Source: an uncultured Lachnospiraceae bacterium (GTDB lineage: Bacteria > Bacillota > Clostridia > Lachnospirales > Lachnospiraceae). From it: a stretch of 37,086 nt of DNA. Numbering within the stretch: position 1 is the stretch's first letter; each line of letters starts with the position of its first letter. A program made the position numbers and the translations under genes. Location of the stretch: contig CALWLK010000092.1 of NCBI GenBank assembly GCA_944381505.1, positions 1 through 37,086 of the forward strand, in the 5' to 3' direction. Below the pieces are notes generated by a model, which did not search any database, was not told where the DNA came from, and worked only from the letters and a program-made list of their open reading frames with translations. This document shows, piece after piece, positions 80 through 10,062 of this stretch.

Positions 80-109
80 AAAAAATGCTGAGGCGGTTCT
101 TCCGCCCCA
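80..109 (-). terminator. Possible Rho-independent terminator, minus strand
   Basis: Positions 89-96 and 102-109 form a hairpin with a GGCGG/CCGCC core, one mismatch and a 5-base loop. On the minus strand it is followed, after GC, by ATTTTTT (86-80). It lies downstream of the amidohydrolase operon end and upstream of the partial gene at the left edge, a sensible place to end the operon transcript. Confidence 0.5.
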
Positions 110-134
110 ACATTTATTATAGAACCAATAATAT

Positions 135-270: not shown

Positions 271-1653
271 CTATTTTTTAAATGCCGATTTGTATTTTCT
301 TCCTCCTGTATCTTTGAGGAAGGTCTCCTTTGCCTTTTTAACAAGACCGGTATCGCTCATAAGGTCGTAAACGGTTCCTGCCATTACTTTTGCTCCGCAA
401 AGAACTGACTTTATCCCCATATCTGCCCCGGCGCAAGCTGTTACCTGCCAAGTATGGCCTGCAAGGCCTACAGGTAAAGCTGTTATAAAAAGATAGGCGA
501 AGGGGGCTATGTAGCTGACATCTCCGTGATCGAAGGTGCCCGGCATAACCTTATCCCAATTGTCGTTGTCCTGAATGTCCTCCATCAGGATCTTGCCTTC
601 TATTTGCTCGGGAAGAATGTAATAGGAAGACATTACGTTTTCTTTGACGGATTGGGGGATATCCTTGGTAATTGCTTCTGCAAAGGAAAAGTCCTTTTCA
701 TCAAATTCAGGTCCACCGACTTCATGAAGGTTTTTGTCAAGAAGCTCTGCGAGATCACGATTTATTATCATGTCGTAACAACCTGATAAAAGCTCTGATG
801 TAAAAGAGGTTTCTGTCATAAGCGCGGCACCCTCGGCTATCTTCATAAGGCGAGCTGTTACTTCCTCAACCTGATCTCTTTTGGGGGCCCGCACCATATA
901 CCAAACTTCCGCATCGGCGGGTACGGCGTTGGGAACCACACCTCCGTTTGTAATACAGTAATGCAGACGCACGGAGTCAACTACATGTTCCCGAAGGTAG
1001 TTGGCGCCTACATTCATGAGTTCTACAGCGTCAAGTGCGCTTCTTCCAAGGTAAGGAGCCATGGCGGCATGGGCAGATAGTCCCTTAAATTTGAATTTTA
1101 TTGAGTTTGAAGCCAAGGAACTGAAACGGACGACTTCGTTATTATTGGCGGGATGCCAAGATAAGGCTATATCCAGATCGTCAAAGACACCCTCGCCGGC
1201 CATCATTGGCTTTCCGACCAACTGCTCCTCGGCGGGACATCCGTAATACCGTATTGTGCCCTTAAGTTTCCCCGAGGCAATCATTTCTTTTATGGCCACA
1301 ACCGCGCCTACGCATCCTGTGGCTAAGAGATTGTGAGCACAACCGTGTCCTGAGGCTCCTTCTTTTACAGGCTCCTGAGTAGTTTGGATTTTCTGTGAGA
1401 GGCCGGGGAGGGCATCATATTCTCCGAGTATTCCTATAACGGGATAGCCGCTGCCGTACTCTGCTATAAAAGCTGTGGGCATGTTTGGCACATCTGATAT
1501 ATTGAAACCGTGAGCTTTCATATGCTCTTTTAAAAGGGATGATGATTTCACTTCATTAAATGCGGTTTCCGCATATTCCCACAGTTGATCGGATATTTCT
1601 TTAAGAGCATTGCGCTCGGAATCTATTGCATCATATAGTATTTGCTTATCCAT
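271..1653 (-). CDS. M20 family amidohydrolase, AbgB-like (p-aminobenzoyl-glutamate hydrolase subunit B type)
   Basis: Predicted cytoplasmic metallo-amidohydrolase of 460 residues, the usual size for the AbgB branch of peptidase family M20. Visible motifs are GILGEYDALPGLSQ (residues 74-87), GHGCAHN (102-108, with likely metal ligands Cys105 and His107) and PAEE (140-143, with the catalytic glutamate pair). AbgB proteins cleave p-aminobenzoyl-glutamate and related aminoacyl-amino-acid amides, but substrates in this branch vary, so the true substrate is unknown. It is the last gene of a five-gene minus-strand operon, just downstream of two membrane proteins that may import its substrate. AGGAGGT (1674-1668) lies 14 bases before the ATG, which is rather long. 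An in-frame stop lies a few codons upstream, so the start cannot move far. No AbgA or AbgT gene is next to it. Family assignment is firm; substrate is open. Confidence 0.9.
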   Translation of the reverse strand: MDKQILYDAIDSERNALKEISDQLWEYAETAFNEVKSSSLLKEHMKAHGFNISDVPNMPTAFIAEYGSGYPVIGILGEYDALPGLSQKIQTTQEPVKEGASGHGCAHNLLATGCVGAVVAIKEMIASGKLKGTIRYYGCPAEEQLVGKPMMAGEGVFDDLDIALSWHPANNNEVVRFSSLASNSIKFKFKGLSAHAAMAPYLGRSALDAVELMNVGANYLREHVVDSVRLHYCITNGGVVPNAVPADAEVWYMVRAPKRDQVEEVTARLMKIAEGAALMTETSFTSELLSGCYDMIINRDLAELLDKNLHEVGGPEFDEKDFSFAEAITKDIPQSVKENVMSSYYILPEQIEGKILMEDIQDNDNWDKVMPGTFDHGDVSYIAPFAYLFITALPVGLAGHTWQVTACAGADMGIKSVLCGAKVMAGTVYDLMSDTGLVKKAKETFLKDTGGRKYKSAFKK

Positions 1654-1678
1654 AATTTGATTTTATTACCTCCTGAAA

Positions 1679-2374
1679 CTATTTCTTTCCGGATATTCCT
1701 CGGCCTACAAATATCGTACCGAAGATGATCAGAACCATCATGAACCAATATGAGCCTCCCGGAACCCAGTTCAGAAGCGGAGTGAAATAGCCTATAAGGT
1801 GCACTGCTACAGCGAGGCAGGCGGCCACAATACCGGTCTTTAAATCGGAAACGAGCTGCTGGGCAAATAAAGCTCCAAAGAGAGCGGGAACTATATTTGT
1901 GAGAGCATTTGTTACGCCTTCGGGCACCATTGAAAGCACCGATGAACCGAGTATCACTCCTAAGGTAAGGATGAGTACATTTACAATGATGGACACCGCT
2001 ATTCCTATTGTGGAGATAATAGTACCCTTCTCGCTTCCGGGCTCAACCTCCGCAGCGTTTTGAACGGCAATAGAAACAGGCATGCGGAGGTTGCTGATAT
2101 TTCCGGACAAAAATGACATGTATGTGCCTGGAATTCCAAGAACTCCGTAATAGGAGATGGGCTCAATAAACCAAAATACTCCCTCCATAGAGGCTATAAG
2201 AAGAAATCCGGTCAGGATGTGTTGGGGTTGAGGATGCAGGTCGAACACAAATAAGAGGACGAGTCCGGGAAGCAATCCCATGAATACTCCAAGCAGATTT
2301 GTGAATCGGCCCAAACGGATTATAGAGGGTATATAATCTTTGTAGAATACACTCTCTTTACTTTCATTACTCAT
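1679..2374 (-). CDS. Unrecognised integral membrane protein, 231 aa, partner of the DUF5058-like protein
   Basis: A hydrophobic protein with about five membrane segments (near residues 25-45, 52-72, 122-148, 155-190 and 205-225). A charged stretch containing NAAEVEPGSEKG lies mid-protein. It also has a glycine/proline-rich region with SYYGVLGIPGTYMSFLSGN around residues 74-92, as seen in membrane carriers. I do not recognise the family by name. AAGGAGGG (2388-2381) sits 6 bases before the ATG, so the start is secure. It lies 16 bases after a DUF5058-like gene of nearly equal length (229 aa) and 25 bases before the AbgB-like hydrolase. Two membrane proteins of equal size between two amidohydrolases suggest a two-subunit transporter. 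That is inference from context. Confidence 0.8.
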   Translation of the reverse strand: MSNESKESVFYKDYIPSIIRLGRFTNLLGVFMGLLPGLVLLFVFDLHPQPQHILTGFLLIASMEGVFWFIEPISYYGVLGIPGTYMSFLSGNISNLRMPVSIAVQNAAEVEPGSEKGTIISTIGIAVSIIVNVLILTLGVILGSSVLSMVPEGVTNALTNIVPALFGALFAQQLVSDLKTGIVAACLAVAVHLIGYFTPLLNWVPGGSYWFMMVLIIFGTIFVGRGISGKK

Positions 2375-2390
2375 TTTGTTCCCTCCTTAT

Positions 2391-3080
2391 TTAGAAAAGC
2401 ATGGATACGGCCATGCCGATAAACATGGACAAGGTGAATGCCCAGTCGTGGATCCATTTCTTTTGAGCCTTTTTATTAAATCCTGAAAAAAGGGCCATAG
2501 ATGCAAATCCTACCAGAGCAGCAACAGTTTGAGCGTCGAAACGGAAGACCCTGTCACAGGTGAGGAACGCAAATACACCTGCTATACAGCACCCTGAGAT
2601 TATGGGAAGCATTTCTCTTTTTCCGCCGGCCATGATATTTTGAAGTTTATCCATTTTATCGGTAAAAAGTGCGGTGAGAATAGGAGCTCCCATAGCGCCG
2701 AGTGTCATGGTCCATACGGCCGTAGCAAAGCCGGTAGGGCTCAGTGACCCCAAGGCTTCTCCGGCTGCCTGAGCTCCAAGCTCTGCAGCAGTCGTTTCAT
2801 ATGCTACCGAACCGATATATGACAACCTATACCAAGCGATCGGCCCTCCCAAGGAGAGGAGCAAAGCGACCATTCCCACAGCTATCCCAAGAGACGGGCC
2901 TATACTTGTGACAGTAGCTATTTTTACTGTGGATTTGATTTGGGCATCCGTGACCCCAAGCTCTTTTCCAACTTTGAGAGATTTTCTCACAAATAAGAAG
3001 CTCTGAAGCAAGACCCAGCCCACACAGGCTCCGCAGGCAAGCCAGATCCAAGGACTGTTGGCGATTTCAAAATAGTTCAT
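2391..3080 (-). CDS. DUF5058 family integral membrane protein (putative transporter subunit)
   Basis: A 229-residue membrane protein. Its start (MNYFEIANSPWIW) and the segment TSIGPSLGIAVGMVALLLS followed by GGPIAWYRLSYIGS match my memory of the DUF5058 family, whose function is not established. About five or six hydrophobic segments are visible: near residues 12-32, 55-78, 115-137, 157-172, 183-200 and 212-229. GGGAGG (3091-3086) is 5 bases before the ATG. It sits between an M20D amidohydrolase and a second 231-residue membrane protein. DUF5058 genes beside M20 peptidases are, as far as I recall, a recurrent arrangement, which supports a role in moving the hydrolase substrate or product. The transport function is inferred. 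Confidence 0.75.
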   Translation of the reverse strand: MNYFEIANSPWIWLACGACVGWVLLQSFLFVRKSLKVGKELGVTDAQIKSTVKIATVTSIGPSLGIAVGMVALLLSLGGPIAWYRLSYIGSVAYETTAAELGAQAAGEALGSLSPTGFATAVWTMTLGAMGAPILTALFTDKMDKLQNIMAGGKREMLPIISGCCIAGVFAFLTCDRVFRFDAQTVAALVGFASMALFSGFNKKAQKKWIHDWAFTLSMFIGMAVSMLF

Positions 3081-3126
3081 AGTTGCCTCCCTTTCATAAA
3101 TATATAGATGTATAAATAGTTTTTAA

Positions 3127-3144
3127 ATTCCGGACATCCGGAAT
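3127..3144 (-). other. Intercistronic inverted repeat after the M20D gene
   Basis: ATTCCGGA (3127-3134), two bases, then TCCGGAAT (3137-3144) form a perfect 8+8 inverted repeat that begins within the TGA stop codon of the M20D gene. On the minus strand it is followed by TTAAAAAC rather than a U tract. It is a weak terminator at best. It could lower expression of the downstream membrane genes, protect an mRNA end, or be a protein-binding dyad. Confidence 0.4.
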
Positions 3145-4322
3145 CAGGCGTTAAGAAAGTCGACAGAAGCTTGAGCCAAAAGAGCGCTTCCCTTTACGAA
3201 AGCCGACTCATCTACATTGAAGCATTCATGATGGTGAGGATATGCACAGCCTTTTGCCTCATTCCTACCGCCGAGAAATGCGAATACTCCGGGGATATCT
3301 TGGCAAAAATATGCGAAGTCATCGCTTCCGCTTACAGGCGGGTCGTTTTTTATTACGTCAGCGCCGAAAAGCTTTGTTGCGGCATTCCTCACTAAATTGT
3401 TAAAATCAACATCCTCGTGTATAACAGGGCCGGTTTTAAATTCGTAGTCTATATCTGCACTGCATCCATAGGCCTTTGCAGTATATTGAACCATCTCTCT
3501 GATGCGATCAGACACCTCCATCCGGTGGATTTTTGAGAAATCACGGACATTGCCGTACAGAACGGTTTTTCCGGCAACGATATTATACTGATAACCGCCG
3601 TCTATTCGCCCTATGGTGATAACTGACGCATTTCTCGGATCGTTCTCTCTGGAAATAAGCGTTTGAAGATTCATGACGATCGCTGCCGCTGCAGTGATAG
3701 AATCATGGCCTTCGTGGGGCAGTCCGCCGTGACAGGCCTTGCCTTTTACTGTTATTGTAAACTGGTCGCTGCTTGCTGTCTGTGGGCCGTCGGGAATGCT
3801 GAAATATCCGGCTTCCTTCCAAGACGCTATGTGCAGACCCAACACGGCATCAACTCCGTTTAAAACGCCTCGATCTACATAAGCTTTCGCCCCTATAGCC
3901 GTCTCCTCCGCTCCCTGAAATATGAGCTTTACATTGCCTGAAAATTCGCCCTTAAGGTCTGTAAGTATCCTTGCGGCTCCAAGGAGCATTGCGATATGCG
4001 AGTCGTGGCCGCATGAGTGCATTACTCCGTCGTTGACGCTCTTGTAGGGAAGATCTGTGGCTTCCTGAGTCGGGAGAGCGTCTATGTCGGCTCTTAAGAG
4101 GATAGTGGCCGGATTCTCGGAGACCTTGCCTCCCCTTATTACGGCCTGACAACCTGTAAGACCGTCAAACCGCCGGGCCTCGATACCAATATCTCCAAGC
4201 TCTCTGATTATGCGTTCGGTAGTCTCAAATTCCTTGTTGGAAAGCTCCGGATGCTGATGAAACCATCTGCGCATATTGATAATGTAATCCTCGTACTTCA
4301 GCGCTCTGTCCTTGATATCCAT
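3144..4322 (-). CDS. M20D amidohydrolase (N-acyl-amino-acid / hippurate / IAA-amino-acid hydrolase type)
   Basis: A predicted cytoplasmic dinuclear-metal amidohydrolase of 392 residues, the normal length for the M20D subfamily. Motifs seen: RRWFHQHPELS (18-28), LLRADIDALPTQE (75-87), HSCGHDSH (102-109, with metal ligands Cys104 and His106), GAEE (137-140, catalytic glutamates), the dimerisation-lid signature CHGGLPHEG near residue 197, and a late HHHECFNVDE. Members remove acyl groups from N-acyl amino acids such as hippurate or indoleacetyl amino acids. They can also act on other amide-linked amino acids. Its ATG directly abuts the TAA of the ATC-hydrolase gene (4325-4323 / 4322-4320), so the two are almost certainly translationally coupled and may act in sequence. 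Exact substrate unknown. Confidence 0.9.
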   Translation of the reverse strand: MDIKDRALKYEDYIINMRRWFHQHPELSNKEFETTERIIRELGDIGIEARRFDGLTGCQAVIRGGKVSENPATILLRADIDALPTQEATDLPYKSVNDGVMHSCGHDSHIAMLLGAARILTDLKGEFSGNVKLIFQGAEETAIGAKAYVDRGVLNGVDAVLGLHIASWKEAGYFSIPDGPQTASSDQFTITVKGKACHGGLPHEGHDSITAAAAIVMNLQTLISRENDPRNASVITIGRIDGGYQYNIVAGKTVLYGNVRDFSKIHRMEVSDRIREMVQYTAKAYGCSADIDYEFKTGPVIHEDVDFNNLVRNAATKLFGADVIKNDPPVSGSDDFAYFCQDIPGVFAFLGGRNEAKGCAYPHHHECFNVDESAFVKGSALLAQASVDFLNA

Positions 4323-4811
4323 TTAATTCTCCCCTTTCGTGTCGATAATCACGCTGTCGCAGCATTCTCCTCCGGTCATCAGAGTCTGTGTGCGTTCAAA
4401 AGCAAAGTCGGGATTTATCCCCTTGAAGAATGCCTCGTCACGCATACAGGAGAGATAAGGCCCCCACTTTTCCATGCCGAGTCGCTTGTACATATCACAG
4501 TATTCGCATCTCAATGTTTTATAGAGCAATTTGTTTTCGGAGAGCCTTGTACATTCAACATCCAAGCTTCCCCCTTCGGAGTGGTGGCTGCAAATCGCCG
4601 GAAGATCTTCAAGCTTGTTGCTGCCGTGGAGCTCTGCTTGCTTTGCCCCGTGAGCCAAGGCGTCCTTTGTGACAGCTTTCGTAAGTATTTCAATGGTTTT
4701 TTCGGTGCCGAGTTCCTGTTCGAGGGCTTCCAAGAATGGCTTTAGGATACGCGCCTCCACCTCTCTTCTGGTTAAAACAGGCAATTCGTCCGGGCTTATT
4801 ATATTTGCCAT
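4323..4811 (-). CDS. L-2-amino-thiazoline-4-carboxylic acid (ATC) hydrolase family protein
   Basis: A 162-residue cytoplasmic protein with the cysteine-rich signature of the ATC-hydrolase family: an alpha-helical first half, CSHHSE near 74-79, then RCEYCDMYKRLG (101-112), LSCMRDEAFFKGINP (120-134) and ERTQTLMTGGECCD (139-152). The described enzyme opens the thiazoline ring of L-ATC to N-carbamoyl-L-cysteine, but many family members are untested. The start is the ATG at 4811: AGGAGG (4825-4820) is 8 bases away. An in-frame GTG at 4820 overlaps the Shine-Dalgarno and is unlikely. It is the first gene of the operon, with the promoter and a palindromic operator just upstream. The adjoining M20D hydrolase could cleave its product. 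That pathway link is inference. Confidence 0.85.
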   Translation of the reverse strand: MANIISPDELPVLTRREVEARILKPFLEALEQELGTEKTIEILTKAVTKDALAHGAKQAELHGSNKLEDLPAICSHHSEGGSLDVECTRLSENKLLYKTLRCEYCDMYKRLGMEKWGPYLSCMRDEAFFKGINPDFAFERTQTLMTGGECCDSVIIDTKGEN

Positions 4812-4836
4812 AAATTTCACCTCCTGATTTATATTT

Positions 4837-4852
4837 TTTAGTCATGACTAAA
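4837..4852. promoter_or_regulatory. Perfect 16-bp palindrome, predicted TetR operator at the amidohydrolase promoter
   Basis: TTTAGTCATGACTAAA is its own reverse complement. It begins about 10 bases downstream of the predicted -10 of the minus-strand operon, so it covers the transcription start. Its inner 14 bases fit TTANNCATGNNTAA, shared with a second palindrome at 5071-5084 in the same divergent region. The divergent tetR gene is the obvious candidate for the binding protein. Confidence 0.65.
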
Positions 4853-4861
4853 TATAAAATA

Positions 4862-4890
4862 AAAATAAACCCGGCATATTAAAATGTCAA
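4862..4890 (-). promoter_or_regulatory. Promoter of the amidohydrolase operon
   Basis: On the minus strand a perfect -35 TTGACA (4890-4885) is followed after 17 bases by TATTTT (4867-4862; four of six matches to TATAAT). The predicted start near 4855 lies at the edge of the 16-bp palindrome, and the leader to the ATG at 4811 is about 45 bases. The rest of this roughly 335-bp AT-rich intergenic region holds a second palindrome and the tetR promoter. I see no credible coding sequence in it. Confidence 0.6.
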
Positions 4891-5070
4891 CAATAAATTG
4901 GAAAACAGAGCAAATATTATAAAAAATATACAAAAAATGCCTGATGATTTTGTGTGTATTTTCGCGTAAAAATTCAAAAACAGATGAAAAGAGCAAAATA
5001 TTATATGTGAATAATTTATATGAGGGGATCATCCGTATAAAATTCCAATATTTATTGCGATATGGTTTGC

Positions 5071-5084
5071 TTATACATGTATAA
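5071..5084. promoter_or_regulatory. Perfect 14-bp palindrome, second predicted operator
   Basis: TTATACATGTATAA is self-complementary and matches the TTANNCATGNNTAA pattern of the palindrome at 4837-4852. Its far edge is 17 bases upstream of the tetR -35 element. It could take part in autoregulation or in looping between the two sites, whose centres are 233 bp apart. Confidence 0.5.
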
Positions 5085-5101
5085 AGCGTTGTGAAGGAAT
5101 A

Positions 5102-5131
5102 TTGATTTTGATCGGCAGAAAAGTATATAAT
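5102..5131 (+). promoter_or_regulatory. Promoter of the tetR-family gene
   Basis: TTGATT (5102-5107) and a perfect TATAAT (5126-5131) are 18 bases apart. The tetR ATG is at 5161, preceded by the purine-rich AAAGAAAGAGG. Confidence 0.5.
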
Positions 5132-5160
5132 AATTAAATAAATTAAAGAAAGAGGATATT

Positions 5161-5796
5161 ATGAGATACAAACAAGAAAAAAAGGAAAGCTTGAATCGGA
5201 CTGCATCAAGTATTCTTAAGGTGGCATATGATCTTTTTCTGAAAAAGGGATATAAAAATGTGACTACAAGGGAAATAGCAGCTTGCGCCGGAGTAAATTT
5301 GGGATTAATAAGCTATTATTTTTCTTCAAAAGAGAATCTGGGGGCCAAGGTTATGGACTATTCCAATAAAAAGCTTTATGAAAAGGCTTTTGAAACGAAA
5401 TTACCCGAGGATACCGGTCCTGCTGAAAAAATGTGTGTCTATACGATACTTCTGTGGAGGTATACGACGCCTGAATTATACCGCTTGGTATTTGAACTCG
5501 CGGATTCAAACCTTTCAAATATACGCATGGGAGAAACGTTTACAGATTTGGCATGGGACGTGATAAAAGCGTATGGTCTTTCTGTTACGCCAATGGAAAA
5601 CGAGATATATTTGACAGCGTTCAAAAGTTCTGAATTGTCGCTTATATGGAAAATGACAAATCATGAATTGAACATTACATGGGATGATATATCGGATCTG
5701 CTTTTATCTGACTATTTTTTCAATATAGGGCTGTCGGATCAGATCATTTATGATGTGCTTGAGCGTAGCAAGAAGATATTGAATGAAATAAGTTGA
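5161..5796 (+). CDS. TetR/AcrR family transcriptional regulator
   Basis: A 211-residue protein of typical TetR length. The N-terminal helix-turn-helix spans about residues 14-60: ILKVAYDLFLKKGYKNVTTR, then EIAACAGVNLGLISYYF and SSKENL, the classic family signature. The remainder (residues 65-211) is a divergent helical ligand-binding domain. It is transcribed away from the amidohydrolase operon across a 335-bp region that contains two related palindromes, so it probably controls that operon and itself, de-repressing when it binds the substrate or a breakdown product. The inducer cannot be read from sequence. The gene is clearly more AT-rich than everything after 5.9 kb. Confidence 0.92.
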   Translation: MRYKQEKKESLNRTASSILKVAYDLFLKKGYKNVTTREIAACAGVNLGLISYYFSSKENLGAKVMDYSNKKLYEKAFETKLPEDTGPAEKMCVYTILLWRYTTPELYRLVFELADSNLSNIRMGETFTDLAWDVIKAYGLSVTPMENEIYLTAFKSSELSLIWKMTNHELNITWDDISDLLLSDYFFNIGLSDQIIYDVLERSKKILNEIS

Positions 5797-5816
5797 TAAG
5801 ATTTTGGAGGATTTAC

Positions 5817-5828
5817 ATGTTTACATAA
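5817..5828 (+). other. Three-codon open frame with a good ribosome-binding site
   Basis: GGAGG (5806-5810) is followed after 6 bases by ATG-TTT-ACA-TAA, just 20 bases beyond the tetR stop. It has all initiation signals but no protein. It may be the remnant start of a gene removed by deletion or recombination, since base composition changes sharply right after it. Chance is also possible. Confidence 0.3.
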
Positions 5829-5913
5829 GAAACTATGAATAATCATTGAAAGCCCGGACCTGTATGGCCCGTATATATTTCAGATGAAAATATATGGGGA
5901 GGAGACTTTTGGT

Positions 5914-6927
5914 ATGAAAAAAACAATTTTGATTCTGTTGGCACTTTCGACTGCGTTTTTATCAGCCGCCTGCGGGGCGGGCTCGGAGGCTGATTCGGCT
6001 TATGAGGCTGAGATGGTGACAGCGGAGACCGCAGCGGCCTATGACGAGGCGGGGGCAGTAGCACAAAGTGTGGGAAGCGTTACGGCGGAGTCAGGCTTCG
6101 GGGCGGCTCCCTCGGCAAACCGAATCGTTGAAGCCGATAAAGGGAGCATGGGGGAAGCCGAGTACACGTCAGGGCCTGAGACAGGCTCAAGGAAGCTCAT
6201 AAAGGATGTAAGCATGAGAGTCGAGACCGAGGAGTTTGACAGGCTCACGGCTTCTATAGAGGAGAAGGCCGAGGCCCTCTCAGGTTATGTTGAGAGCTCG
6301 TCTGTCAGCGGCAACATCAAAAACGGGGAGACGAGATGGGGACATTTTACGGTGAGGATACCCTCCGAAAGGCTGGATGAATTCATGGACACAGCCTTTG
6401 CGTATGCAAATATCATATCCAAAAACGAGCAGCTCACTGACATCACCCTTAAATATACGGACACCGAGTCCCGCATTACCGCCCTTAAGACAGAGCAGGA
6501 GAGGCTTACGGAACTATTATCGGAGGCGGAGAGCGCGGAGAGCCTTATCGTAATAGAGGACAGGCTTTCGGAGATAAGATATGAGCTCCAAAACTTTGAG
6601 TCACAGCTGAGACTTTATGACAATCAGGTGAACTACAGCACTGTAAGGATAGATATCAGCGAGGTGAAGGTCCTAACAGTCGGCGCTCAGGCAGGAGTCC
6701 TTGAGAGGATAGGCTCGGGTATATCCAAAAACATGAGTGGTCTCGGAAGCTTTCTCGAAAATGCGGTCATAGTTACAGTAAGCTTTCTGCCTGTGGCGGC
6801 TGTTTTGGGTATGGTCATATCAGGCGTTTACAAGGCGGCAAAAACCGTGAAGAACCGCAGAAAAAACAGGCAGATCAACAAAGAGGGAAAAGGAGAAGGA
6901 GACGAGATACAACGCGAAAAAAAGTGA
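5914..6927 (+). CDS. DUF4349 domain lipoprotein
   Basis: A predicted membrane-anchored lipoprotein of 337 residues. The signal sequence MKKTILILLALSTAFLSAAC ends in a lipobox-like SAAC at Cys20. A low-complexity Ala/Glu/Ser linker follows. The DUF4349 domain (residues about 90-265) starts at RKLIKDVSMRVETEEFD and includes VRIPSERLDEFM and a coiled-coil stretch with TDTESRITALKTEQERL. A C-terminal membrane helix (about residues 285-312) and a basic tail follow. The start is the ATG at 5914: GGGGAGGAG (5896-5904) is 9 bases upstream, whereas an in-frame ATG at 5884 has no site. DUF4349 has no established function. The protein would be held at the outer membrane face by lipid and helix. It is monocistronic, with a hairpin downstream. 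Confidence 0.88.
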   Translation: MKKTILILLALSTAFLSAACGAGSEADSAYEAEMVTAETAAAYDEAGAVAQSVGSVTAESGFGAAPSANRIVEADKGSMGEAEYTSGPETGSRKLIKDVSMRVETEEFDRLTASIEEKAEALSGYVESSSVSGNIKNGETRWGHFTVRIPSERLDEFMDTAFAYANIISKNEQLTDITLKYTDTESRITALKTEQERLTELLSEAESAESLIVIEDRLSEIRYELQNFESQLRLYDNQVNYSTVRIDISEVKVLTVGAQAGVLERIGSGISKNMSGLGSFLENAVIVTVSFLPVAAVLGMVISGVYKAAKTVKNRRKNRQINKEGKGEGDEIQREKK

Positions 6928-6987
6928 GGGCTGTGGCGGGTTAAGTATTCGGAGAGCGGTAAAACGCAAATTTTAAAGAAAACTTTA

Positions 6988-7018
6988 AAAGCCGTATAGT
7001 GGAAAACTATGCGGCTTT
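6988..7018 (+). terminator. Probable terminator after the DUF4349 gene
   Basis: AAAGCCGTATAGT (6988-7000), loop GGAAA, then ACTATGCGGCTTT (7006-7018) form a 13-bp stem with one G-U pair ending in CTTTAT. The T tract is short. An overlapping AT-rich hairpin (TTTAAAG-AAAA-CTTTAAA, about 6972-6989) could compete with it. Confidence 0.55.
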
Positions 7019-7095
7019 ATGCTATTATAAAAAGCAGTATTTTAAAGAAAAACACCGCTTAAGAGCTTTGCTCCGGGCGGATTCGGAGGAAAAGA

Positions 7096-7929
7096 ATGAA
7101 GGGAATCATCCTTGCGGGGGGCTCGGGGACGAGGCTTTACCCGCTGACAAAGGTAACATCAAAGCAGCTTCTGCCCATTTACGACAAGCCCATGATATAC
7201 TATCCGCTGTCGGTTCTCATGAATGCGGGCATAAAGGACATACTTATCATATCCACACCCACGGACACTCCCAGGTTCGAGGATCTCTTGGGTGACGGAC
7301 ACCAGTTTGGAATAAGCCTTAGCTACAAGGTACAGCCATCTCCGGACGGCCTCGCCCAGGCCTTCATCATCGGCGAGGACTTTATAGGTGATGACTCTGT
7401 AGCCATGATACTGGGAGACAATATCTTCCACGGACACGGCTTCACAAAGAGACTGAGGAAGGCCGCTGAAAAGACTGAGGGCGCAACAGTCTTCGGATAC
7501 TATGTTGACGACCCTGAGCGCTTCGGAATAGTGGAGTTTGACAGCGAGGGAAAGGCTGTCTCCATAGAGGAAAAGCCTCAAAACCCCAAGTCCAACTACT
7601 GCGTCACCGGACTCTACTTCTACGACAACAAGGTGGTGGAGTATGCTAAAAATCTTAAGCCCTCCGCAAGAGGCGAGCTTGAGATAACGGATCTTAACCG
7701 CATTTATCTCGAGAACGGCGAGCTGGAGGTGGAGCTTCTGGGACAGGGCTTTACTTGGCTTGACACGGGAACCCATGAGTCCCTCATGGATGCCGGGAAT
7801 TTCGTGCGTACAGTGGAGACCCATCAGCACAGAAAGATAGCCTGCCTTGAGGAGATAGCCTATTTAAACGGTTGGATCACCAAGGAGGAGGTCCTTAAGT
7901 CCTACGAGGTACTTAAAAAAAACCAGTAA
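7096..7929 (+). CDS. rfbA: Glucose-1-phosphate thymidylyltransferase
   Basis: Makes dTDP-glucose from dTTP and glucose-1-phosphate, the first step to dTDP-L-rhamnose, in the cytoplasm. The 277 residues cover the whole family, slightly shorter at the C-terminus than the roughly 290-residue enterobacterial form. Motifs: [13 protein letters not shown] (6-18), [18 protein letters not shown] (22-39), LGDNIFHG near 110 and EEKP near 157. GGAGG (7085-7089) precedes the ATG by 6 bases. It opens the long plus-strand glycan locus, followed by rfbB and rfbD. A longer open frame starting upstream in another phase (6999) is a shadow of this gene. Confidence 0.96.
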
Positions 7930-7988
7930 GGAAAGTATTGAAAGGACGTGCTGGACGGAAAATATGTAGATAAGATCCAAAAGTAAGG

Positions 7989-8017
7989 CCGCAGAACTCG
8001 CTTTTGGAGCTTTGCGG
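7989..8017 (+). other. Intercistronic hairpin between rfbA and rfbB
   Basis: CCGCAGAACTC (7989-7999) pairs with GAGCTTTGCGG (8007-8017) with one mismatch and one G-U pair around a 7-base loop. It is followed by an A-rich, not T-rich, stretch, so it is not a plain terminator. It may stabilise a processed mRNA end or separate rfbA from rfbB. The rest of the 138-bp gap shows nothing else I can name. Confidence 0.35.
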
Positions 8018-8067
8018 AAAAATAAAATAAACATAGCTATTTCAAAAAAAATTTAGGAGTTAAACAT

Positions 8068-9093
8068 ATGAAGATAGTAGTTACAGGCGGAGCGGGATTT
8101 ATCGGGAGCGTAATGGTGCAGTATCTGGTAAACACCTATCCCGAGGACATGATAATAAACCTTGACAAGCTCACCTACGCGGGAAACCTTGAAAATTTAA
8201 AGAGCATAGAGGGAAAGCCCAATTATAAGTTTGTAAAGGGAGATATTGCAGACAGGGCATTTGTTTTCAAGCTCTTTGAGGAGGAAAAGCCCGACGTTAT
8301 CATAAACTTTGCGGCGGAGAGCCATGTGGATCGTTCTGTTGAGCATCCCGAGGAGTTCGTGCGTACCAATGTGATGGGCACCACCACCCTCCTTGACGCC
8401 TGCAAAAAGTACGGCATAAAGAGATACCATCAGGTGTCCACCGATGAGGTCTACGGAGACCTGCCTCTTGACAGGCCCGATCTCTTCTTTACGGAGGAGA
8501 CACCTCTCCACGCCTCAAGCCCTTACTCGGCTTCAAAGGCTTCGGCGGACATGTTCGTTATGGCATACCACAGGACATTTAAGATACCTGTCACCATCTC
8601 AAGATGCTCCAACAACTACGGGCAGTACCAGTTCCCCGAGAAGCTCATCCCTCTCATGATATCGAGAGCTCTCGCGGACGAGGAGCTTCCCGTATACGGA
8701 GACGGAGCGAACGTGAGAGACTGGCTCCACGTTGAGGATCACTGCAAGGCTATCGACCTTATCGTGAGAGAGGGAAAAGAGGGAGAGATCTACAATATAG
8801 GCGGTCACAATGAGAGGACGAACCTTCAGGTTGTAAAGACCATACTCTCGGCCCTCGGGAAGCCCGAGTCCCTCATAAAGTATGTTAAGGACAGGCCGGG
8901 ACACGACAGAAGATATGCCATAGATCCCGCAAAGCTCGAGAGAGAACTGGGATGGAAGCCCAAGTACAATTTTGATACAGGCATAAAGCAGACCATAGAG
9001 TGGTATCTCAAAAACAAGGACTGGTGGGAGAGGATAATAAGCGGAGAGTATCAGAATTATTTCAAGGAAATGTACAGGGACAGAGTCAATTAA
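8068..9093 (+). CDS. rfbB: dTDP-glucose 4,6-dehydratase
   Basis: Converts dTDP-glucose to dTDP-4-keto-6-deoxyglucose. This intermediate is the branch point both for rhamnose and for dTDP-amino sugars, which matters because a sugar aminotransferase lies downstream. 341 residues, full length. Features: NAD-binding TGGAGFIGS (6-14), the catalytic triplet Thr125-Asp126-Glu127 in STDEVYGD, and the Tyr153/Lys157 pair in YSASK. Near-identical organisation to other short-chain dehydrogenase/reductase sugar dehydratases. AGGAG about 9 bases upstream of the ATG supports the start. Confidence 0.97.
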   Translation: MKIVVTGGAGFIGSVMVQYLVNTYPEDMIINLDKLTYAGNLENLKSIEGKPNYKFVKGDIADRAFVFKLFEEEKPDVIINFAAESHVDRSVEHPEEFVRTNVMGTTTLLDACKKYGIKRYHQVSTDEVYGDLPLDRPDLFFTEETPLHASSPYSASKASADMFVMAYHRTFKIPVTISRCSNNYGQYQFPEKLIPLMISRALADEELPVYGDGANVRDWLHVEDHCKAIDLIVREGKEGEIYNIGGHNERTNLQVVKTILSALGKPESLIKYVKDRPGHDRRYAIDPAKLERELGWKPKYNFDTGIKQTIEWYLKNKDWWERIISGEYQNYFKEMYRDRVN

Positions 9094-9120
9094 AAACTTA
9101 AAGGGCGCAGGGGATATACT

Positions 9121-10062
9121 ATGATAAGCAACGATCTCAAGAATACTATAATCAAGACGGATTTCGGTGAGCTTGACATTGACAAGCTCATAGAGGACAG
9201 CGCAAAGAGGATATTTGTCACGGGAGTAAAGGGACAGCTGGGCCACGATATCATGCTGGAGCTCCAAAAGAGGAATATAGAGGGCATAGGTGTAGATATC
9301 GAGGAGATGGACATCACGGACCCTGAGGCCGTGAGACAGGTGATAGGCGACGCCGCTCCCGACGCGGTGATACACTGCGCCGCTTGGACTGCGGTGGACG
9401 CGGCTGAGGACAATGAGGAAAAGTGCAGGCTTGTGAACGCCTACGGCACAGAGAATATAGCAAAGGTCTGCAGGGAGCTCATGATACCCATGATGTATTT
9501 CTCCACTGACTACGTGTTTAACGGAGAGGGAGACAGGCCCTGGGAGCCTGAAGACGAGGCCGAGCCCTTAAATGTCTACGGACAGACAAAATATGAGGGT
9601 GAGGAGGCTGTCAGAAAGTACGTCCCCGACAGGCATTTTATAGTAAGGATACAGTGGGTATACGGAAAGAACGGAAAGAACTTTGTAAAGACCATGCTCA
9701 AGCTTTCCGAGACCCACGACAGGCTGACGGTGGTGGACGATCAGATAGGGTCTCCCACCTACACCCCTGACATAGCCCGCATTGCTGTCGATATGATACT
9801 TTCCGACAAGTACGGCACCTACCATGTGGCGAACGAGGGGCTCTGCAGTTGGTATGACTTTGCAAAGGAGATATTCAGGCTTTCAGGAAAAGATGTGGAG
9901 GTGGTGCCGGTGGATTCCTCGGAGTATCCCGCAAAGGCAAAGAGGCCTCACAATTCCAGAATGGACCTCTCAAAGCTTACGGAGGAGGGATTTACGATGC
10001 TTCCCCCTTGGCAGGATGCCCTATCAAGGTATCTTGAGGAGATAAACTACAAAGCCCTGTAA
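9121..10062 (+). CDS. rfbD: dTDP-4-dehydrorhamnose reductase, with an N-terminal extension
   Basis: Last step of dTDP-L-rhamnose synthesis: NAD(P)H-dependent reduction of dTDP-4-keto-rhamnose. The Rossmann motif TGVKGQLG is at residues 34-41 and STDYVFNG follows at 128-135. The Tyr153/Lys157 pair is in YGQTK, and PHNSRMDLSKL lies near the C-terminus. The 313 residues exceed the usual 280-300 because about 29 residues (MISNDLKNTIIKTDFGELD and onward) precede the normal start. AGGGG lies about 7 bases before the ATG at 9121, and no in-frame ATG occurs between there and IFVTGVKG, so the extension appears genuine. It contains no recognisable motif. Confidence 0.95.
   Translation: MISNDLKNTIIKTDFGELDIDKLIEDSAKRIFVTGVKGQLGHDIMLELQKRNIEGIGVDIEEMDITDPEAVRQVIGDAAPDAVIHCAAWTAVDAAEDNEEKCRLVNAYGTENIAKVCRELMIPMMYFSTDYVFNGEGDRPWEPEDEAEPLNVYGQTKYEGEEAVRKYVPDRHFIVRIQWVYGKNGKNFVKTMLKLSETHDRLTVVDDQIGSPTYTPDIARIAVDMILSDKYGTYHVANEGLCSWYDFAKEIFRLSGKDVEVVPVDSSEYPAKAKRPHNSRMDLSKLTEEGFTMLPPWQDALSRYLEEINYKAL

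Follow-up and report, generated by a model that had tools for sequence, protein, structure and literature searches.

A TetR-flanked operon in a Lachnospiraceae draft genome joins a conserved pair of membrane proteins to M20 hydrolases

Contig CALWLK010000092.1 of an uncultured Lachnospiraceae bacterium (GenBank assembly GCA_944381505.1), part of a draft genome of 1.8 Mb, carries an operon of five genes on its minus strand, from which a gene for a TetR-family regulator diverges. We refer to the whole stretch of DNA analyzed, 37,086 nucleotides, as the window. The operon encodes, in this order, a PF14196 protein of the 2-aminothiazoline-4-carboxylate (ATC) hydrolase family, an M20D amidohydrolase, a membrane protein of family DUF5058 (subunit A), a partner membrane protein (subunit B), and a second M20D hydrolase that resembles AbgB of Escherichia coli. 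The operon itself is real, and its main interest lies in the membrane pair and the tie of this pair to M20 hydrolases, not in the ATC-hydrolase gene. Genes for the two subunits stand side by side in many Clostridia, mostly with an M20 gene close by, and the charge patterns of the two proteins are opposite. In general terms, the operon is probably a TetR-controlled system that imports and hydrolyzes capped amino acids or small peptides.

The operon and its control region

The six genes and the sites around them are as follows.

5161 to 5796, plus strand: TetR-family regulator, divergent from the operon; PF00440 (TetR_N) 50.4 bits
5102 to 5131, plus strand: promoter-like site of the TetR gene, TTGATT-18-TATAAT, 10 of 12 positions; equally frequent by chance
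4862 to 4890, minus strand: promoter-like site of the operon, TTGACA-17-TATTTT, 10 of 12 positions; equally frequent by chance
4837 to 4852, no strand: perfect 16-base palindrome between the promoter-like and ribosome sites; candidate TetR operator
4323 to 4811, minus strand: ATC-hydrolase-family protein (PF14196) with three conserved cysteines; GTG start at 4820 also possible
3144 to 4322, minus strand: M20D amidohydrolase, CpsA/YxeP-like, without a hydrophobic N-terminal segment; TIGR01891 344.2 bits, best solved relative YxeP
2391 to 3080, minus strand: DUF5058 membrane protein (subunit A); six membrane segments predicted, both ends outside by charge pattern
1679 to 2374, minus strand: partner membrane protein (subunit B), no Pfam family; six membrane segments predicted, both ends inside by charge pattern
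271 to 1653, minus strand: AbgB-like M20D hydrolase without a hydrophobic N-terminal segment; 38% identity to E. coli AbgB, best solved relative HmrA
83 to 115, minus strand: terminator-like hairpin downstream of the last gene, with a stem of 14 pairs and a T-rich tail; equally frequent by chance
1207 to 9716, no strand: segment near-identical (99.9%) to a contig of genome G021, 75-85% identical beyond; on the left it stops where the G021 contig does

The operon genes are separated by 0, 63, 16 and 25 bases. The exact abutment of the first two genes, claimed in the original prediction, is confirmed by the coordinates (stop codon of the PF14196 gene at 4323-4325, start ATG of the M20D gene at 4320-4322), and the families that it named for the three enzymes are borne out by profile scores or identity; the two membrane proteins, described there as equal in size, have 229 and 231 amino acids. 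The ATG at 4811, giving 162 amino acids, is the likelier start of the PF14196 gene, since the GTG listed at 4820 overlaps with its AGGAGG ribosome site.

The two M20D hydrolases differ in their relationships. Both exceed the cut-off of the amidohydrolase model TIGR01891 (153.75 bits), the first M20D with 344.2 bits and the last gene of the operon with 224.3 bits. The first scores highest with the CpsA model, where it stays below the cut-off, and with TIGR01891; it reaches 34.8 bits with the hydantoinase/carbamoylase model TIGR01879, which requires 204, and the AbgB-like protein is not listed for that model at E 0.01. The identity of the AbgB-like protein to E. coli AbgB extends over 468 amino acids, and after HmrA its next solved relative is Xaa-Arg dipeptidase.

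The operon had also been described as TetR-controlled. What stands is a single operon flanked by a TetR gene, together with a candidate operator, the palindrome TTTAGTCATGACTAAA, to which the regulator may bind. At up to one mismatch, this palindrome is the sole such site in its own genome (1.8 Mb searched, about 87% complete), and no site was found in the 24 other genomes searched, a set to which G021 does not belong. The promoter-like site, the palindrome and the terminator-like hairpin would fit one regulated (repressed) transcript. Since promoter-like and terminator-like matches occur at about chance frequency, the argument for these sites is their position; against a single transcript stand the scans as a whole, with 13 promoter-like matches found and 11.4 expected from shuffled sequence, and 6 and 5.6, respectively, for terminators.

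A nearly identical copy of much of this region occurs in G021, a genome of the same genus. Between 1207, where the G021 contig (G021:C24; loci L065 and L259) ends, and 9700, there are 10 differences between the two sequences; identity drops to 75-85% beginning at 9717, and other compared stretches of the two genomes are 68-91% identical. The segment represents either a recent exchange between two species or a chimeric assembly, and its near-identity means that the G021 copy is not an independent one.

The membrane pair and its M20 neighbors across genomes

Loci with the pair (L labels; G labels denote genomes) were drawn from 61 relatives, 15 of them with a match, from 299 genomes of the phylum (25 matched, 23 of them over the cut-off), and from the GTDB collection, where 80 DUF5058 relatives were kept of at least 590 found. 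A six-frame count over 122 fetched loci (L065-L106, L125-L204) yielded 116 distinct DUF5058 genes after removal of two duplicates (L193, L203) from 118. Five loci contain no counted gene: L083 and L084, which were fetched for PF14196, L082 at a contig end, L081, and L087 (G081), where DUF5058 is split by an in-frame stop and the adjacent partner and two M20 reading frames are open. The six-frame count replaces a lower one based on open reading frames (ORFs), with a partner in 99 and an M20 gene in 85 of 109, which missed genes lying beneath overlapping reverse-strand ORFs.

Wherever at least 700 bases were available downstream, the partner gene directly follows DUF5058 on the same strand (112 of 112 genes). 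A same-strand M20 gene lies within 3.5 kb of 81 of the 90 DUF5058 genes with enough flanking sequence, and of 97 of the 116 overall. The loci of the phylum sample alone (L085-L106, minus the split gene of L087) give a partner in 21 of 21 cases and an M20 gene in 16 of 21. The original prediction had taken the membrane pair for an importer, and a carrier for amides is indeed likely, the pair and its M20 neighbors being present in many Clostridia and in single Synergistaceae and other records. It named conservation of the five-gene neighborhood as a check, and this did not hold: apart from the window, an ATC-hydrolase gene was found within 5 kb of DUF5058 in one of the 116 genes, the near-identical copy in G021, with 5 kb available on both sides in 63 of the 118. 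With this sampling, rarer copies of the five-gene set may be missed.

The hydrolases beside the pair are of several kinds. Sorted by BLAST, 91 M20 ORFs of at least 340 amino acids fall into 16 that are closest to AbgB or the AbgB-like protein of the window, 11 closest to its first M20D (one being the G021 copy itself), 1 closest to AbgA, and 63 that match none of these four references. This sorting was used instead of the M20D1 and M20D2 profiles, which mixed both M20D kinds and labeled several YxeP-like proteins as M20D2 (the profile labels of the six-frame count being 72, 20 and 5). For L125, an example of the large class, PRK08262 models score best, below their cut-offs, and aminoacylase-1 and DapE are the solved relatives; PRK08262 presumably resembles human PM20D1. 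Among single examples, L086 matches ArgE/DapE, L104 matches glutamate-carboxypeptidase models below cut-off, and L093 passes the hydantoinase/carbamoylase model with 355 bits (204 needed). Some of the loci that lack an M20 gene carry another amide cutter, an M42 glutamyl aminopeptidase in L105 and an amidohydrolase in L103.

A hydrophobic N-terminal segment is present in 60 of 65 partner enzymes of the commonest M20 class, as against 0 of 31 in the two M20D profile classes; at the threshold that we set, the PF14196 protein and both M20D enzymes of the window are also without one. Positive charges are more numerous after the segment than before it in 54 of the 60 enzymes, with the reverse in 5, so the catalytic domain is predicted to be cytosolic, at the inner membrane face. 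The use of different amide cutters with one membrane pair would fit a carrier for amide-capped amino acids or small peptides.

Several other genes were seen near the pair. A capsule-type PGA_cap gene directly follows it in L070 and L100, and another neighbor in L070, at first taken for an aminotransferase, turned out to be a phage integrase. In L080 and L106 the gene immediately before the pair encodes a large regulator that combines a LuxR-type end with MalT-like repeats. The genome of the window has a second DUF5058/partner/M20D cluster (contig C70, L066), located, as in L069, after selA, selB and a gene of the cysteine-desulfurase family, and the start of this arrangement is also seen in L082. 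A selenium link of the pair was considered and rejected, selA and selB being confined, among the fetched loci, to these three same-genus loci (L066, L069 and L082).

Sequence and predicted topology of the two subunits

Subunit A is a clear member of DUF5058 (PF16481, 216.2 bits with a cut-off of 28.2), and subunit B has no Pfam or NCBIfam match at E 0.01. AlphaFold models of both are confident, with a mean predicted local distance difference test score of 89.9 for DUF5058 and 87.9 for the partner. By our reading of the helix lists, the modeled subunits appear to share a similar helix order, with a motif region of short helices after the second long helix. Invariant residues in DUF5058 are Pro62, Gly78, Trp83, Arg85 and Glu95; the partner has invariant Gly22, Gly80, Tyr85, Gly91 and Pro99, and nearly invariant Glu71 and Asn92.

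Charges were counted in alignments of 60 DUF5058 rows and 58 partner rows, with helix borders that we set from the models. At least two lysines or arginines occur in loops 1, 3 and 5 of DUF5058 in 60, 60 and 59 of the 60 rows, compared with 4 rows for the N-terminus and 0 for the C-terminus. The pattern of the partner is the opposite: the N-terminus, loop 4 and the C-terminus carry such charges in 58, 51 and 57 of the 58 rows, and loops 1, 3 and 5 in 1, 7 and 2. Under the positive-inside rule, these opposite patterns lead to the prediction that A and B are inserted in opposite directions.

Comparison of the A and B profiles gave a local E of 0.008 (probability 5%) and a global P of 0.001 (probability 9%), and reversed controls, run for the local comparison only, gave P 0.16 and 0.17. 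No fusion of A and B was present among the ORFs of the fetched loci. YjiH, of the Gate-type pair YjiG/YjiH, was tried as a relative and rejected, the hhalign probabilities for A and B being 0.6 and 1.0% with a single YjiH sequence. Neither subunit matches AbgT at E 0.01; AbgT is likewise absent from the 18 families of the partner alignment and from the matches listed (25 of 62 families) for the DUF5058 alignment.

Proposed function and alternatives

A TetR-controlled import-and-hydrolyze operon would most probably work as follows. TetR would release the operon when a substrate or product appears. Subunits A and B would form one carrier, possibly an antiparallel heterodimer whose conserved motif regions reach in from opposite faces, with Arg85 and Glu95 of A and Glu71 of B serving carboxylate binding and ion coupling. 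This carrier may bring an N-acyl, N-aminobenzoyl or N-carbamoyl amino acid, or a small peptide, into the cytosol, where the M20D and AbgB-like enzymes would cut the amide and remove the cap. The PF14196 protein might act on another, perhaps cyclic, compound of this supply line, opening or trimming it and passing it to the same amidohydrolases.

A more specific and decidedly tentative proposal is that the pair represents a new transporter family, in which diverged and oppositely inserted A and B subunits make up an antiparallel carrier without a solved relative, dedicated to amide-capped amino acids and handing its cargo to M20 enzymes that in the relatives are mostly tethered at the inner face; the version in the window would add a ring-opening enzyme and may use cyanide-derived ATC for sulfur and nitrogen. 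If true, this would give a role, the uptake of N-capped amino acids, to a membrane pair that occurs in many gut and rumen Clostridia and has one subunit without a Pfam family, and it would add a carrier of two different subunits in opposite orientation. Such substrates (N-acyl and carbamoyl amino acids and products of folate breakdown) link diet, host and microbes.

Several results weigh against an import-and-hydrolyze function or against parts of it. A control with random positions from these loci, which is small and imperfect, had an M20 gene nearby in 5 of 40 cases, and the loci, which were gathered by homology and are mutually related, are not independent. Nine of the 90 well-flanked DUF5058 genes have no same-strand M20 gene (in L068 it is on the other strand), and in two of these nine the next-door gene is PGA_cap (L100) or a flavin adenine dinucleotide oxidoreductase (L181). 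Locus L081 has a truncated DUF5058 gene, too short to count, without a detected partner. The ATC-hydrolase gene is tied to the pair in one lineage only. Foldseek returned 0 matches at E 0.001 or better for either model among folds solved up to April 2026, which leaves the carrier fold of A and B unconfirmed. The motif regions contain at least two lysines or arginines in 36 of 60 rows of A, where the model places the region outside, and in 51 of 58 rows of B. The idea that A and B are clear paralogues was given up: at a probability of 5 to 9% their similarity is suggestive and not significant, and the case for symmetry is made by the charge patterns and by our reading of helix order. Finally, a literature search, which largely did not reach subscription titles, found neither a paper on DUF5058 or PF16481 nor any account of A or B acting as a transporter or an enzyme.

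Among known systems, abgABT of E. coli, which serves the use of p-aminobenzoyl-glutamate, is similar in that one operon, with a regulator gene diverging from it, encodes an AbgB-like protein, another M20D enzyme and membrane proteins. It differs from the window, where DUF5058 and its partner stand in place of AbgT, the regulator is of the TetR and not the LysR type, and there is an extra gene of the ATC-hydrolase family. The operon would best be read as an AbgABT-like system with an unrelated transporter. The yxe (scm) operon of Bacillus subtilis, for S-(2-succino)cysteine, likewise clusters a YxeP-like M20D enzyme with a probable transporter, although neither YxeL nor YxeK is among the five genes of the window; the yxe transporter is of the ATP-binding cassette (ABC) type according to the available text of PMC9706529.

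The specific route of the original prediction was thiazoline scavenging, with the membrane pair importing ATC, the PF14196 protein opening the ring, and the adjacent M20D enzyme removing the carbamoyl group to give cysteine. We regard this as unlikely. It has in its favor the abutment of the two genes, a PF14196 score of 106.8 bits (cut-off 28.1), and three cysteines, Cys105, Cys125 and Cys154 in GTG numbering, that align with conserved cysteine columns (43, 44 and 45 of 59 rows) and recall the three-cysteine cluster described for PF14196, a family that resembles V4R and HNOB domains (PMC5847659, in the part available). Further, YxeP, the closest solved relative of the first M20D, releases cysteine from N-acetylcysteine in B. 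subtilis (PMC9706529, available part), and ATC is a natural metabolite of cyanide in animals (PMC9291117, available part). The N-carbamoyl-L-cysteine that the prediction took as the known intermediate is one of two published; S-carbamoyl cysteine is given as the alternative in the accessible text of PMC10821248, so the chemistry assumed as known is not single.

As in the Pseudomonas pathway from ATC to L-cysteine, a PF14196-family gene stands beside an amidohydrolase gene. The specific route from ATC through N-carbamoyl-cysteine to cysteine is weak for several reasons. The Pseudomonas amidohydrolase belongs to the hydantoinase/carbamoylase family, whereas those of the window are M20D enzymes and both miss the carbamoylase model. 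ATC racemase, a named step of the Pseudomonas pathway (PMC10821248, available part), is absent from the five operon genes and the TetR gene, the six genes to which the search was confined. PF14196 is moreover a broad family, present in 43 of the 299 phylum genomes in varied neighborhoods. With the window protein as query, matches were found in 15 of 392 genomes of the order, its own included; outside its own genome the best match by E-value is 26% identical, none exceeds 39%, and the protein shares a long branch with the G021 copy. At 115 of the 116 DUF5058 genes, with the flanks already given (5 kb on both sides in 63 of 118), no ATC-hydrolase gene lies within 5 kb.

An M20 gene does occur within three genes of a PF14196 gene in 9 of 72 cases, compared with 2 of 79 distant ORFs and 42 of 678 among all ORFs in those loci, a linkage that exists as a weak excess over the baseline of 2 of 79. 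Seven of the nine M20 neighbors are AbgB-like, four of these seven in the genus of the window; of the nine, four are from the same genus, one is the G021 copy, and one (L237) is on the other strand. A functional link between PF14196 and AbgB-like enzymes is favored by the adjacency of their genes in L118, L119, L120 and L121, from other genomes of the genus, and in L266, but the PF14196 proteins of these five loci fall in a different clade from that of the window. The L119-L121 clusters resemble the operon in combining AbgB-like, PF14196 and importer genes, with the first two mutually adjacent there. In L119 the importer, unlike that of the window, is an ABC system for small solutes, with a binding protein, a permease and an ATPase beside the pair of genes by scan; in L120 and L121 genes of matching size, judged by size alone, stand there.

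We consider it slightly less likely still that A and B are no importer but export a compound, act as an enzyme in the membrane, or anchor M20 hydrolases there as a scaffold. The direction of transport is a matter of inference, and both the hydrophobic N-terminal segments of the commonest M20 class (60 of 65) and the PGA_cap gene after the pair in two loci would suit this alternative. The window hydrolases are without such segments, import followed by hydrolysis is the simplest use of cytosolic enzymes, and several hydrolase branches share one pair. Least likely of the three, by a small margin, is a system for p-aminobenzoyl-glutamate from folate breakdown, in which the two M20D enzymes would act as AbgA and AbgB and A-B would replace AbgT: 38% identity to AbgB over 468 amino acids and, for the first M20D, 29% to AbgA over 382 amino acids speak for it, but the first M20D does far better with YxeP and the CpsA model than with AbgA (97 bits), the relatives of the AbgB-like protein include HmrA and Xaa-Arg dipeptidase, and the ATC-hydrolase protein would be left unexplained.

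Other PF14196 genes have neighbors of their own. The next gene in L118-L120 encodes 596 amino acids, and its L119 copy is a flavoprotein with flavin-reductase, flavodoxin and rubredoxin-like domains. In two further genomes of the genus (L084, L112), the PF14196 gene adjoins a gene for peptidase T, which the M20 profiles missed, and in L084 it is flanked on the other side by an ABC permease (BPD_transp_1). PF14196 genes in L206, L242, L224, L235 and L271 are near runs of genes whose sizes are like those of ABC importers.

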